Shown here one piece after another: positions 53,070 through 59,042 of a stretch of DNA of 64,000 nt. Source of the stretch: Comamonadaceae bacterium (GTDB taxonomy: Bacteria; Pseudomonadota; Gammaproteobacteria; Burkholderiales; Burkholderiaceae_C). The translations under genes were made by a program, and so were the position numbers. Location: contig CANFXC010000004.1 in the NCBI GenBank assembly GCA_947450765.1, positions 1 through 64,000 of the forward strand. Direction: 5' to 3'. Below the pieces are notes generated by a model. The model saw nothing but the letters and a program-made list of their open reading frames with translations, ran no database searches and was not told where the DNA came from. The first letter of the stretch is position 1. Every line of letters begins with the position of its first letter.

Positions 53070-54344
53070 TCAAAGTAGGCTATCGGCCCAGATATTTCGA
53101 GCCCAGTCCCAAGCGTAAATCCCCTCAAGCTCAGTCGGCGCCAGCGACACACCACCCGAACCAGGGACGGTTTTAAACGTTTTGTCAGCGGCACTGTATT
53201 GATGCACGCTGGCCACATGAACCACGCGCGTGGCGTCCACAAAGCTATAGCAGGTGTTGGTCAAAACAGGTTCTGGGTTGATGTCGAACCCGCGCAGTTC
53301 AGCCACGATGGCGGCCGCAGCCACCTTGGCGTGCTGATTGGCCATGTGACCCGACTTGGGCATGAACGCAGCGTTTTGGGTTGAATCCCCGATGACATGA
53401 ATATCTTTGGCGGCGGTTGATTCGAAATTTAAAAAATGGACCTGTGCCCAGCGCTCGTTCGAATTGGCCAGCCCCGCTTGCACGACGATTTGGCTTGCAC
53501 GCATGCGTGGCAAAACATTCAAGACATCGGCACGGACAGATTCTTGAATGTCAAATGTGAGCGTCCTGGTCGCGGCGTCGACCCGCAGCAAGTTGTGTGA
53601 GGAGCGGTAGTCAACCATCCCCGGGTACAAATCAGCCCACGCTTTTTTAAACAAGCCAGGCTTGGACACCACGTCTTCGTTGGCATCGAGGATCAACACC
53701 TTCGACTTGGGCTTGTGTTGTTTGAAATAAGCGGCCACCTGACAGGCTCTTTCATACGGCCCAGGCGGGCATCTGAAAGGCGCCTCTGGAATGCTGATGG
53801 CGAACACACCGCCATCCGGCATCTGCTGCAGTTGCTTTTGCAGAGCCAGGGTTTCGGCGCCCGCCTTCCAGGCCTGCAAGGTCACACCCGCTTGATTCGC
53901 CTGCGCCAAACCTTCAATGCTGTCCATCATCAGATCCACCCCGGGCGACAACACCAATTTGTCGTAGGCGAGACTTTTGCCGGATCTTAATTGGATGATT
54001 TTTTTGAGCGGATCAATGGACATGACCCAGTCTTTGACCCAAGAAACGCCATGCTGCATTTGCAAAGCATCGTACGAAACCGTCAATTCAGCGAGCGTGT
54101 TTGAGCCGCCTAAAACCAAGTTCGACAGCGGGCAAGAGACAAAAAATGGATCAGGCTCAATCAGCGTGACGCGCGCGTTGTGGTCAGAAAACAGGCGGAT
54201 ATATTTCGCTGCCGTTGCACCGCCAAAGCCTGCGCCAACGACCAGCACCTGAGCCGATTGAAGATCGGCACGCACCAAACCCGGAAATGCCACACCACCC
54301 GCCAACAGAGTGGCGCTGCGATTTAGAAAATGACGGCGATTCAT
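53070..54344 (-). CDS. SoxF/FccB-like FAD-dependent sulfide dehydrogenase flavoprotein
   Basis: Tat signal MNRRHFLNRS, QVLVVGAGFGGATAAKYIRLFS, C-terminal FCSD-like domain; directly downstream of soxA. Confidence 0.85.
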   Translation of the reverse strand: MNRRHFLNRSATLLAGGVAFPGLVRADLQSAQVLVVGAGFGGATAAKYIRLFSDHNARVTLIEPDPFFVSCPLSNLVLGGSNTLAELTVSYDALQMQHGVSWVKDWVMSIDPLKKIIQLRSGKSLAYDKLVLSPGVDLMMDSIEGLAQANQAGVTLQAWKAGAETLALQKQLQQMPDGGVFAISIPEAPFRCPPGPYERACQVAAYFKQHKPKSKVLILDANEDVVSKPGLFKKAWADLYPGMVDYRSSHNLLRVDAATRTLTFDIQESVRADVLNVLPRMRASQIVVQAGLANSNERWAQVHFLNFESTAAKDIHVIGDSTQNAAFMPKSGHMANQHAKVAAAAIVAELRGFDINPEPVLTNTCYSFVDATRVVHVASVHQYSAADKTFKTVPGSGGVSLAPTELEGIYAWDWARNIWADSLL

Positions 54345-54364
54345 GATGACCTCTGAATGATGTT

Positions 54365-55183
54365 TTAGGGCCGCACGCCCGGGCTCTCAAGTGGCATACC
54401 GCGTGCGCGCCAGGCTAAAAACAATTCAAGCTCTAGCAACTCGTTGGAGCCAAAAGCATAAGGTTCAGCGCGAACGCCCGTCAAACAATTGCGCAAGCGC
54501 CGCTCTAAAGAACCGACCGACTGCCACTCAAGACGATAAATAGGATAAGCCGTGGGATGCGCTTGTGGAATCAAATTTCCGGCGAGTTTTTGCCCCGGCC
54601 GCTCGGCATGGCACTGCGCACACGACAGGTTCAATTGACCGAGCCGCTGATTGAACAAACGTTCGCCGGCATCCAGGCGTGGAGCATTTGACGCATCACG
54701 CACCACCGTGATGGGCATGCCTTTAGACTGGGTCGCCACAAATGCTGACAGCGATAAAAGAGGTTTGCTTTCAGGTGCCAGGGGCACGGCACCCTGGTGG
54801 TCAGTACGGCACTGATTGATGCGCCCGCCAAGGTTCAACAACGGTCGGCCCGCGGAGCTTAACTTAGGAAAGCTGGCCGCAACGCCTTTCATCGACACGG
54901 CCGCATCACCGTGACACGACGCGCAAGATCTGTTTTTGTGACCCGCCGCTTCTTGCCATAACGCCTGCCCGTCCAGCACGGCGAAGTTGGCGGGATTCAG
55001 CAGTGGGTCGTCTTGCATGGCCTTTGTATCGGTCGACATCAGCTCGTAACTGGACTGCCGGTCGTCACCAACAGGGTCCGCCTTGACCAAAGCCCCGAGC
55101 ACAAGGACCGAACAGACCACCCAGCAGACAAAGACTTTAGCGGCAACGGTCATCGAAGCGCACTCTGCAACGGAGGCATTCAC
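54365..55183 (-). CDS. soxA: SoxA diheme cytochrome c
   Basis: Two CXXCH (CASCH, CAQCH) and the conserved RNCLTGVRAEPYAFGSNELLELELFLAWRARGMPLESPGVRP C-terminus. Confidence 0.92.
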   Translation of the reverse strand: MNASVAECASMTVAAKVFVCWVVCSVLVLGALVKADPVGDDRQSSYELMSTDTKAMQDDPLLNPANFAVLDGQALWQEAAGHKNRSCASCHGDAAVSMKGVAASFPKLSSAGRPLLNLGGRINQCRTDHQGAVPLAPESKPLLSLSAFVATQSKGMPITVVRDASNAPRLDAGERLFNQRLGQLNLSCAQCHAERPGQKLAGNLIPQAHPTAYPIYRLEWQSVGSLERRLRNCLTGVRAEPYAFGSNELLELELFLAWRARGMPLESPGVRP

Positions 55184-55509
55184 GTCACCACAAGTTGACT
55201 GGTCGTCTTAGAAGCGTAGCCATTGTCGCCAGACCAATTGAATTCAAGGGTGCCGCTTTCAGTCGCTACGGTTGTAAAAATGATCATGGGATTGGCCCCC
55301 ACGCCCGGATGCAGTTCGACCCGGAAGACTTCAACGCCGTTGTACGTACAGAGAAAATCTCGAATGATGTCGCGCGGTACACGCTGCCCGGTTTCAGTGT
55401 GACGAAAACCGGATTCCATATCGTGTTGAACGATGACTCGGATTTGAACAATATCGCCCTTCTTGGCGCTTGCCGGCATGGTGGCCAGCGTACGAGAGGT
55501 CTTGCTCAT
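55180..55509 (-). CDS. soxZ: SoxZ sulfur carrier subunit
   Basis: KKGDIVQIRVIVQHDMESGFRHTETGQRVPRDIIRDFLCTYNGVEVFRVELHPGVGANP. Confidence 0.92.
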   Translation of the reverse strand: MSKTSRTLATMPASAKKGDIVQIRVIVQHDMESGFRHTETGQRVPRDIIRDFLCTYNGVEVFRVELHPGVGANPMIIFTTVATESGTLEFNWSGDNGYASKTTSQLVVT

Positions 55510-55512
55510 TTT

Positions 55513-55956
55513 TTACACCTCAGCACAGGCGGCTATCGTGACAAGCGTCGAGGCATCACCTTGCCAAAAAGAACCATCACTCATGTGCGCGATGGCCAAT
55601 ACACGTTGCGAATCGCCCAAACGGATGCGCGTCGTGATGTCCGCCCGACCTGAACGCGACGACAGATAGAAACTCACCACATTCGGCAAGGGGTTGCCTT
55701 CAGCCACGATATGAATCGCTTGCACGTGATCAGCCGGTGTCATAGGGCTCTCAACCGAGACCTTCATGGTGACAAGATTGCCGTTTTCAACCAACGGTGG
55801 GATCACCAACGTCACTCGACCCACAGAGGCTTTTTTGCTACCCAAAATTTGGTTAGCCGCCTGCGTGGCGTCTGCGACTGTGGCGAGCGCGTTAAGCGAG
55901 GTCAACCCACTGGCTGCTCCGGCACTGATGACAAAAGCTCTTCGATTGATCGTCAC
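55513..55956 (-). CDS. soxY: SoxY-like sulfur carrier with non-canonical C-terminus (AACAEV)
   Basis: Tat signal NRRAFVISAG, SoxY fold pattern, adjacent to soxZ; C-terminal VTIAACAEV read directly from the bases. Confidence 0.85.
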   Translation of the reverse strand: MTINRRAFVISAGAASGLTSLNALATVADATQAANQILGSKKASVGRVTLVIPPLVENGNLVTMKVSVESPMTPADHVQAIHIVAEGNPLPNVVSFYLSSRSGRADITTRIRLGDSQRVLAIAHMSDGSFWQGDASTLVTIAACAEV

Positions 55957-56393
55957 GGTTTTAAGCTCACTAGAAAAGCGACAACATCTTCAATGTCCTG
56001 TGCCGTCAAGATGGACTTGCCGGCGAACTGCGGCGCCACACGCGTGAGACCGTCAGTGCGGAAATACGAGGGCATGATGCTGTCTGGATTGAACCTGCTT
56101 GCATCGACGATGCGTGCACGCAACTGTGCAGGCGACAAGCGGGCAGAACTAGCCGTAAGATCAGGCGCCAGATTGCCCTGAAACCGCTCTTCAGGAAACG
56201 GGCCGCTGTGACACAAAATACACAAGCCTACCTGCCGGCTGACGACCAGTGCCCGCCCCCGGGCAACATCACCCGGACGCCCTGACAGCGACTCCACCCT
56301 CTGATCGGCAACAAATGTCTCCGCAAAAAGGGGGCCGGGGGTGGCGAGGCAGACACTCAGTGCCAACACCCACACAGCACCCCAGACCGTCAT
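55953..56393 (-). CDS. soxX: SoxX monoheme cytochrome c
   Basis: CILCH heme site, PSYFRTDGLTRVAPQFAGKSILTAQDIEDVVAFLVSL; adjacent to soxYZA. Confidence 0.9.
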   Translation of the reverse strand: MTVWGAVWVLALSVCLATPGPLFAETFVADQRVESLSGRPGDVARGRALVVSRQVGLCILCHSGPFPEERFQGNLAPDLTASSARLSPAQLRARIVDASRFNPDSIMPSYFRTDGLTRVAPQFAGKSILTAQDIEDVVAFLVSLKP

Positions 56394-58579
56394 ACCAAAG
56401 TCATTCCACTATTTTTCAGCGGCACATTGCGCAAGCGTTTTCCAGTGGCACGATAAATAGCGTTGAGCACAGCCGGTGCTGCCACACAAATGGTGGGTTC
56501 ACCAATGCCGCCCCAATCTTTGCCGCCGCCCTCAAGGATGATGGTCTCGACCTTGGGCATCTGCGCAAGCCGGATCGACCCGAACGTATCGAAGTTCTTT
56601 TGTTCGATACGGCCATTTTTAACTGTGCATTCTTCTTCGAACAAAGCCGACAAACCATACACGAACGAGCCTGAGACCTGACGTTTGATTTGCGCCGGAT
56701 TGACGGCATAGCCACAATCGGTCGCAGCAACAATACGGTGGATTTTGACCTTGCTGCCATCCGTCACAGACAGCTCGCAGGCCGCTGCGACATAACTGCC
56801 AAAAGCCGTCATCTGTGCAACCCCGCGAAACACCCCAGGCGCAGCCGGCTTAGTCCAACCGATACCATCGGCCACGGCATTGAGCACCGCAAGATTGCGC
56901 GGGAATTTGGCCATGTACTTGCGACGAAACTCAACCGCATCAACACCGGCAGCCTCGGCGAGTTCATCCATGAAGCATTCCATGAACACCGCATTTTGAT
57001 TCACATTCACACCACGCCAAAAGCCTGGCGGAATGTGCGTATTGCGCATCGCGTGCTCCATCAACTGGTTGGGGAACTCATACCCTAAAGCATGCTCGCC
57101 ACCGTCAAAAACACCTTGAAAGGCCAGCGCATCACGGCCTTTTTGTGCCGCCAGAACAGCCGGGAACACCGAGGCCAAAATCGACTGACCTGACAAGCGC
57201 ATGTGCACACCCGTCAGATTTTTATTGGCATCAAACGAGCCGGTGAGCTTGCACATCATGATCGGGTGGTAGCGCCCCTGAGTCATATCCTCTTCTCGTG
57301 TCCACATCAGTTTGATCGGCGTACCCGGCATTTGTTTCGCGATGTTGACCGCTTGCGTGGTGTAGTCTTGAAACGCACCGCGCCGACCGAAGCCGCCACC
57401 CAGATTGACTTTATAGACTTCGCATTTTTCAGCCGCCAAGCCAGACGCCTCAATCACGGCCGCCAATGACGCTTCGCCGTCTTGAGTCGGCACCCAGGCT
57501 TCGCAACGCTCAGGGGTCCATTTGGCCGTGGCGTTCATGGGCTCCATCGGCGCGTGGTTCAGGAACGGGTAAAAGTAGGTGGCTTCGGTCTTTTGAACTG
57601 CGGTGTTTAGCGCAACCTTGGTGTCGCCGCGCGTGTTGCCCACAAAAGCCTGTTCAGCAGTCAAGCCCTCCTCCAAAATCTTGGCAATGGAGGCACTGGA
57701 TACGGATGCGTTAGGGCCTTCGTCCCACACAATCTCCACTTGGTCCAGCGCAGTTTTGGCGATCCAGAAAGTGTCGGCCACCACGGCCACCGCCGTCTCA
57801 CCGACTTTTATGACCTTCTTGACGCCTTTGATGCCCGTCACTTTGCTGGCATCAAAGCTTTTGACCTTGCCACCAAACACCGGACACTCTCGGATATTGG
57901 CCACCAACATGCCCGGCAGCTTTAAATCCATCCCGTAAACCTGTTTGCCGGTCACTTTGTCGGCGTAGGTATCGATGCGATTCAGCGGTTTCCCAATAAT
58001 CTTCCAGTCTTTAGGATCTTTCAGTGTGATGTCAGTCGGCACGGCGATCTTTGAAGCAGCTGCGGCGACTTTGCCGAAAGTGACTTTGCGACCCGTGGGT
58101 GTGTGCGTGATCACGCTTACTGCCGCAACACACTCTGCAACGGGAACTTTCCATTCGTCAGCGGCGGCTTGGACCAGCATCAAACGGGCCGCTGCCCCAC
58201 CCTTGCGAACGTACTGCTCTGATGTGCGGATGCCGCGACTGCCGCCAGTCGAGAACGCACCCCAGACGCGCTTGCGCTTGAGGCTTTCACCCGGCGTGGG
58301 ATATTCAACCGTGACTTTTTTCCAGTCGCATTCGAGTTCTTCGGCCACCAGTTGGGCCAAGCCGGTGATGGTGCCTTGGCCCATCTCTGAGCGTACGACG
58401 CGGACAATGACAGTGTCGTCGGGCTTGATCACCACCCAAGCACCGATTTCGGGGGTGGGTTCTGCAGCTTGTGCAGAACCCATAAAAGCCATTTGAATAC
58501 CCAAGGCCAAGCCACTGCTGACGGCTGTTGTACCCACCACAAAATGACGACGTGAAAGATTTGGGACGCGTGCGTTCAT
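56390..58579 (-). CDS. Molybdopterin cytosine dinucleotide-dependent hydroxylase large subunit (IorB-like, Tat-exported)
   Basis: Tat signal LSRRHFVVGTTAVSSG; NLGGGFGRRGAFQDYTTQAV, VKVGETAVAVVADTFWIAKTALDQVEIVWDEG, GGKDWGGIGEPTICVAAPAVLNAI. Confidence 0.9.
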   Translation of the reverse strand: MNARVPNLSRRHFVVGTTAVSSGLALGIQMAFMGSAQAAEPTPEIGAWVVIKPDDTVIVRVVRSEMGQGTITGLAQLVAEELECDWKKVTVEYPTPGESLKRKRVWGAFSTGGSRGIRTSEQYVRKGGAAARLMLVQAAADEWKVPVAECVAAVSVITHTPTGRKVTFGKVAAAASKIAVPTDITLKDPKDWKIIGKPLNRIDTYADKVTGKQVYGMDLKLPGMLVANIRECPVFGGKVKSFDASKVTGIKGVKKVIKVGETAVAVVADTFWIAKTALDQVEIVWDEGPNASVSSASIAKILEEGLTAEQAFVGNTRGDTKVALNTAVQKTEATYFYPFLNHAPMEPMNATAKWTPERCEAWVPTQDGEASLAAVIEASGLAAEKCEVYKVNLGGGFGRRGAFQDYTTQAVNIAKQMPGTPIKLMWTREEDMTQGRYHPIMMCKLTGSFDANKNLTGVHMRLSGQSILASVFPAVLAAQKGRDALAFQGVFDGGEHALGYEFPNQLMEHAMRNTHIPPGFWRGVNVNQNAVFMECFMDELAEAAGVDAVEFRRKYMAKFPRNLAVLNAVADGIGWTKPAAPGVFRGVAQMTAFGSYVAAACELSVTDGSKVKIHRIVAATDCGYAVNPAQIKRQVSGSFVYGLSALFEEECTVKNGRIEQKNFDTFGSIRLAQMPKVETIILEGGGKDWGGIGEPTICVAAPAVLNAIYRATGKRLRNVPLKNSGMTLV

Positions 58580-58589
58580 GTTGGACCCC

Positions 58590-59042
58590 TTAGGCTTTTG
58601 CGACTGAATGGATAGCGGCGCGAACTTCTTGAAAGCTCCCGCAACGACAAATATTGGTGATCGCTGCATCGATATCAGCATCAGTCGGCTTAGGCTTTTT
58701 AGCCAGCAAATCAGTGGCGGCCATCAGCATGCCGGATTGGCAATAGCCACACTGTGGCACTTGATGCTCGATCCAGGCCTGCTGCAGCTGCGTCAGCTTG
58801 CCATTTTTGGCCAGCCCTTCAATCGTTTGGATTTTCTTGCCCACGGCAACACTGACAGGCAGCACACATGATCGAATAGCCGCGCCATCCATCATGACGG
58901 TACAGGCGCCACATTGCGCCACACCGCAGCCGTATTTGGTGCCGGTTAAACCTAACTGCTCACGGATGACCCACAACAACGGGGTGCTTGAATCGACATC
59001 GACTTTGTGCGCTTTGCCGTTAACCGTCAATTGAATCGCCAT
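58590..59042 (-). CDS. (2Fe-2S)-binding small subunit of molybdenum hydroxylase (IorA-like)
   Basis: [53 protein letters not shown]. Confidence 0.93.

Follow-up and report, generated by a model that had tools for sequence, protein, structure and literature searches.

A SoxY-related carrier with an AACAEV arm encoded beside a molybdenum hydroxylase in place of SoxB

SoxB is the usual sulfate-releasing enzyme of the Sox pathway. Canonical SoxY is encoded with SoxB and holds its substrate cysteine on a flexible C-terminal arm ending in GGCGG. A different arm is already catalogued in NCBIfam as TIGR04487, the 'SoxY-related AACIE arm protein', defined by an AAC-x-E arm; the tail type described here is therefore not new, the family is uncharacterised, and no mention of it was found in the open literature searched. 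PGAP gives the AACIE name to homologues on plasmids of Neorhizobium galegae and Methylobacterium. A large survey of SoxY variants dropped sequences without GGC, so that AACxE carriers fell outside it, and fused SoxYZ carriers next to PQQ alcohol and methanol dehydrogenases have been proposed to act in carbon metabolism (PMC11237559). Bradyrhizobium diazoefficiens has two soxY homologues, of which thiosulfate oxidation is reported to require only soxY1, the one in the canonical locus (PMC5748708). Judging from the genomes compared here, soxY2 of this species would be of the AACxE type.

The carrier and its family

The window, the whole stretch of 64,000 nucleotides analysed here, contains an intact soxY reading frame of 147 codons whose GTG start overlaps the soxX stop (Table 1) and whose product has a Tat-like N-terminus (TINRRAFVISAG). 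Direct reading of the minus strand from 55545 to 55513 gives CTT GTC ACG ATA GCC GCC TGT GCT GAG GTG TAA, translated as L V T I A A C A E V stop, which bears out the AACAEV end given in an earlier sequence-only reading of this DNA. The arm cysteine, residue 143 of the 146-residue translation, aligns with the substrate cysteine of the solved SoxY structures 2ox5, 2oxg and 4uwq, and the same reading was thus also right that the cysteine is kept while the glycines of GGCGG are replaced. Its count of two extra residues (E, V) was wrong: three residues (A-E-V) follow the cysteine versus two in GGCGG, making the tail one residue longer. The AF2 model has the SoxY fold, with P. pantotrophus SoxY (2oxg, E 6e-10) as best match, and the pLDDT of the last four residues is below 50, hence the arm tip is presumably flexible in the model.

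Comparison with the family models at the curated NCBIfam cut-offs, which the sequence-only reading had proposed, placed the window SoxY above the cut-off of TIGR04487 (179.7 bits versus 172) and below that of true SoxY, TIGR04488 (89.6 versus 125), and its AACAE agrees with the arm that defines the former family. Since other Burkholderiales loci carry the tail TLAAC[ILV]E and all 50 ior-linked SoxYs fit [ASPG]-A-C-x-[EDI], the AACAEV tail is real and conserved and not a product of chance.

Operon context and related loci

On the minus strand of the window the genes follow the order iorA, iorB, soxX, soxY, soxZ, soxA and then the FCSD flavoprotein, and soxB is absent from this ior-sox locus. 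The single SoxB in the window's genome is encoded on another contig, where it adjoins a second SoxY ending in GGCGG.

Table 1. Features of the ior-sox locus in the window and the evidence for each assignment.
Feature	Position	Strand	Evidence
iorA-like [2Fe-2S] small subunit	58590..59042	(-)	Pfam Fer2/Fer2_2; 8gy3_B E 2e-44
iorB-like Mo-hydroxylase large subunit (xanthine oxidase family), Tat signal	56390..58579	(-)	Pfam MoCoBD_1/2
soxX monohaem cytochrome	55953..56393	(-)	TIGR04485 78.9 bits (cut-off 61); 2c1d_B/1h31_B
soxY paralogue, 'SoxY-related AACIE arm protein' (TIGR04487)	55513..55956	(-)	Tat-like signal, C-terminal arm VTIAACAEV
C-terminal swinging arm LVTIAACAEV-stop	55513..55545	(-)	direct reading; Cys codon 55525-55527
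soxZ, partner subunit	55180..55509	(-)	Pfam SoxZ E 6e-24; TIGR04490 75.0 bits, just under cut-off 76
soxA dihaem cytochrome	54365..55183	(-)	TIGR04484 207.6 bits (cut-off 110)
flavocytochrome c sulfide dehydrogenase flavoprotein (FCSD/soxF-like)	53070..54344	(-)	Pfam FCSD_central, FCSD-flav_bind; synteny

The window IorAB has the MoCo-binding domains, the catalytic Glu motif and the [2Fe-2S] subunit of the IorAB/xanthine oxidase family; IorB carries the motifs GGGFGRR and GIGEP, and its best solved relative is the large subunit of the aldehyde dehydrogenase 8gy3 (E 3e-66). The window SoxA qualifies as a dihaem SoxA by its score (Table 1) and by retaining the Cys haem ligand together with both adjacent Arg (alignment to 1h31/2c1d), and these three residues are present in 43/43 ior-linked SoxAs. 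They match a pocket known from SoxA/TsdA (PMC4423706), which makes it plausible that the SoxY cysteine is loaded oxidatively. The position Cys-14 of SoxA, Glu in 42 and Glu or Gln in all 43 ior-linked sequences, was considered as a possible sign that SoxAX acts on a new substrate and rejected, since Glu is also found in three Bradyrhizobium-like SoxAs linked to SoxB, and Ser or Ala takes its place in the second ior subtype described below. Because this Glu is shared with the three SoxB-linked SoxAs, thiosulfate is still a possible substrate.

Searches with TIGR04487 in 151 genomes of the family and 399 of the phylum yielded 46 genomes with such a SoxY, weaker-scoring sequences being accepted by tail and locus; labels such as 'Bradyrhizobium-like' and 'Polynucleobacter-like' for these relatives are guesses, made partly from kinship. 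In the fetched neighbourhoods the order iorA-iorB-soxX-soxY-soxZ-soxA was found wherever the contig permits; most alphaproteobacteria-like loci have FCSD inserted after iorB and before soxX. No soxB was present within 10 kb of the conserved operon iorA-iorB-(FCSD)-soxX-soxY-soxZ-soxA. The FCSD module is common to the window and to alphaproteobacterial ior-sox loci, and the ior-sox order is shared by several families and recurs on named plasmids from Neorhizobium, Methylobacterium and Roseomonas. Two loci (L043, L055) have no ior visible on their contigs; wherever neighbours could be read, the AACxE SoxY accompanies the molybdenum enzyme and not SoxB. Conversely, the first 12 GGCGG SoxYs checked all had an adjacent soxB and no ior. 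Among the ior-sox neighbourhoods compared, no conserved neighbour that would reveal the substrate was found beyond the core unit.

Several loci showed individual features. In family f57, genes for making the molybdenum cofactor (an XdhC/MobA fusion, MoaE, MoaC and a likely MoeA) lie directly downstream of the ior-sox cluster (L108:11609-17085), in keeping with a molybdenum enzyme as part of the module. A gene of the selenium-binding protein family SBP56, which includes methanethiol oxidases, lies near the cluster in two Bradyrhizobium-like genomes (L095:15692-17122). In L057-L060, at about 9.5-10.7 kb, a further soxYZ pair whose SoxY tail is VAASGCGM stands beside two FCSD-like genes, and neither soxB nor ior is present in that stretch. 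The Roseomonas marmotae SoxY beside ior (L148:8899-9339, tail GACVETG) is annotated as the true thiosulfate carrier SoxY despite a score of 102.9 bits versus the cut-off of 125. The window cluster itself (53070-59042) has its nearer relatives in 2-Mb genomes belonging to another family, f4/g144 (SoxY about 61%, IorB 71-74% identity); identities are lower within its own genus (SoxY 50%, IorB 60-63% in G100), and this comparison of identities suggests that it was acquired by horizontal transfer.

Tail type, partner enzyme and genomes without SoxB

Identities of the sox-linked IorB copies to that of the window range from 55 to 74%, and in these copies the motifs for molybdopterin binding and for the catalytic Glu are retained. 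Of the IorB homologues in the family, those that are full-length and reach 57% identity or more to the window's adjoin soxXYZA with one exception, an ior pair in G111:C296 (L154:4608-7306; 60% identical to the window IorB) without sox genes on its short 9-kb contig; an IorB in G084 that is truncated by a contig break is assignable neither to the sox-linked nor to the unlinked copies. Ordinary IorAB pairs, 37-41% identical to the window's, were without sox genes within about 6 kb in 16/16 cases. Since the close copies adjoin soxXYZA, bar that of G111, and the ordinary pairs do not, the sox-linked IorB is, as judged from identity and gene order, a dedicated subfamily. Furthermore, a second subtype was found at four loci (L150-L153), in which iorAB, about 56% identical to the window's, is convergent with soxXYZA. 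Its SoxY is short, scores under every NCBIfam cut-off and, at the three loci of the four where the tail was read, ends in TSSACFDAS. Here too, Cys-1 is Ala and Cys+2 is acidic, in a locus whose genes are laid out differently. A further short contig (L156) holds the sox half only of this subtype.

The SoxY tails segregate by linkage without exception in our sample of 50 ior-linked and 34 SoxB-linked sequences, a comparison called for by the sequence-only reading. All ior-linked SoxYs have Ala at Cys-1, 48/50 have Ala or Ser at Cys-2 and 46/50 have Glu or Asp at Cys+2, the four exceptions being the AAC[LV]IG tails of family f57. The GGCGG end is found in 34/34 SoxB-linked and 0/50 ior-linked SoxYs (Fisher p 3e-24, a descriptive value only, the sequences being related), and an AACAEV-type tail, which the reading said would count against its inference if common in SoxB-dependent SoxYs, occurs in 0/34 of the SoxB-linked sequences. 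The earlier suggestion of a carrier adapted to different partner enzymes is thus upheld as a correlation. In a quick SoxY tree calculated without the tail columns and without row L149 (wrong reading frame), the 49 ior-linked SoxYs that make up the main lineage fall on one side of a branch with SH-aLRT 95, giving that lineage a single origin; since this grouping is obtained without the tail, tail and partner probably switched a single time in the main lineage. That the SoxY tail type tracks the neighbouring enzymes is well supported by these sequence comparisons, as a correlation whose counts are non-independent through shared ancestry. The ior-sox partner association is strong and apparently not described in the open literature searched.

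INDEPENDENCE OF SOXB: ten of the 46 genomes are without any SoxB over the cut-off (G007, G012, G031, G067, G070, G120, G224, G367, G453 and G467), and therefore the module, if functional, runs without SoxB there. Six of the ten (G031, G120, G224, G367, G453, G467) are also without a SoxY over the TIGR04488 cut-off, and two of these, G367 and G467, are single-contig genomes. The other 36 genomes with an AACxE-type SoxY also hold SoxB, so that cross-talk with the canonical Sox system is possible.

A proposed SoxB-independent module and its alternatives

We consider it reasonably likely that the window SoxY carries sulfur for a periplasmic module independent of SoxB, iorAB-(FCSD)-soxXYZA, in which SoxAX loads the arm cysteine and the arm goes to IorAB. 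In this module the arm tip [AS]-A-C-x-[DE] would take the place of the SoxB-associated GGCGG and might leave the carrier unable to serve SoxB. SoxAX would oxidatively couple a sulfur anion or a thiol to the arm cysteine, passing the electrons to cytochrome c, and the loaded arm would then be presented to the IorAB-type molybdenum hydroxylase rather than to SoxB; FCSD, where present, may supply or remove sulfane sulfur. Candidate substrates are thiosulfate, a sulfane or an organic thiol. The support for partner switching is correlative throughout, and the counts behind it are linked by common descent. More tentatively, and at somewhat less than even odds in our judgement, iorAB-soxXYZA might represent a previously undescribed branch of Sox metabolism that works without SoxB. 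In it, a molybdenum enzyme of the aldehyde/xanthine-oxidase type would act directly on the SoxY-borne substrate, and the arm tip would have been retuned to [AS]-A-C-x-[DE] for this partner and kept in two operon layouts (AACxE in line with ior, SACFDAS convergent).

What the hydroxylase would do with the loaded arm can be read in other ways. It is doubtful, though conceivable, that IorAB oxidises an organosulfur or aldehyde compound while SoxXYZA takes the sulfur or bears a thiol-bound organic intermediate: the nearest solved relative of IorB is an aldehyde dehydrogenase (8gy3), SoxYZ-like carriers adjoining alcohol dehydrogenases offer an analogy, and an SBP56 gene flanks two Bradyrhizobium-like loci, but a conserved transporter or catabolic gene, which would speak for such a route, was not found outside the core unit. 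The xanthine oxidase family is known for C-H and aldehyde hydroxylation and is not known for sulfane oxidation. The membership of IorB in this family weighs against a second route of thiosulfate or sulfane oxidation, in which the molybdenum hydroxylase, in the role of SoxCD, would convert SoxY-bound sulfane with SoxB-free release of sulfur, as does the report that Bradyrhizobium soxY1 alone is essential for thiosulfate oxidation (PMC5748708); we regard this route as unlikely, even though SoxAX is complete with its active-site Cys and Arg retained and the operon of the window and of alphaproteobacteria includes FCSD, a member of a sulfide-oxidising flavoprotein family.

A redundant or decaying canonical carrier, its tail drifting neutrally after gene duplication, might be expected from the presence of SoxB in most genomes with such a SoxY (36/46). 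It is already contradicted by the conservation of the tail, with the Cys and the preceding Ala kept in 50/50 distant loci and the acid at +2 in 46/50; the operon is moreover intact, and SoxY is present in genomes without SoxB. Neutral drift is accordingly very improbable.

AACxE carriers are found in many Burkholderiales and alphaproteobacteria-like genomes, often alongside canonical Sox, and automated annotation can call them thiosulfate oxidation proteins, as in the Roseomonas marmotae example. In SoxB-free genomes, counting soxXYZA can overstate thiosulfate oxidation and may mask another sulfur or organosulfur reaction. The linkage of this tail to a molybdenum enzyme points to a side branch of the Sox sulfur pathway that has yet to be characterised, and if the arm tip decides which enzyme can be visited, the two natural tail types provide a direct test.

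Among known systems, the TIGR04487 family is closest: the window SoxY matches its model over the whole length and shares the AACxE tail, but differs in having Ala at Cys+1, where the family has Ile, Leu, Val or Thr, in its final Val and in its nearness to the 2-Mb f4 genomes instead of its own genus. With canonical SoxY (TIGR04488; P. pantotrophus 2oxg, T. thermophilus 4uwq) it shares the fold, the SoxZ partner and the C-terminal Cys on a flexible arm, and it is set apart by AACAEV for GGCGG, by a score of 89.6 bits versus the cut-off of 125 and by having iorAB, not soxB, as neighbours. The SoxY signature variants S1b-S4 likewise have divergent arms and altered genomic partners, but that survey set consists of GGC-bearing sequences, with AACxE carriers outside it (PMC11237559). 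Finally, the fused SoxYZ-like carriers of quinoprotein dehydrogenase loci (TIGR04557) are a comparable case of a SoxYZ-type carrier recruited next to a periplasmic dehydrogenase; those carriers join Y and Z in one protein and have a PQQ enzyme as their partner, whereas in the window Y and Z are separate and stand with SoxAX and a molybdenum hydroxylase.
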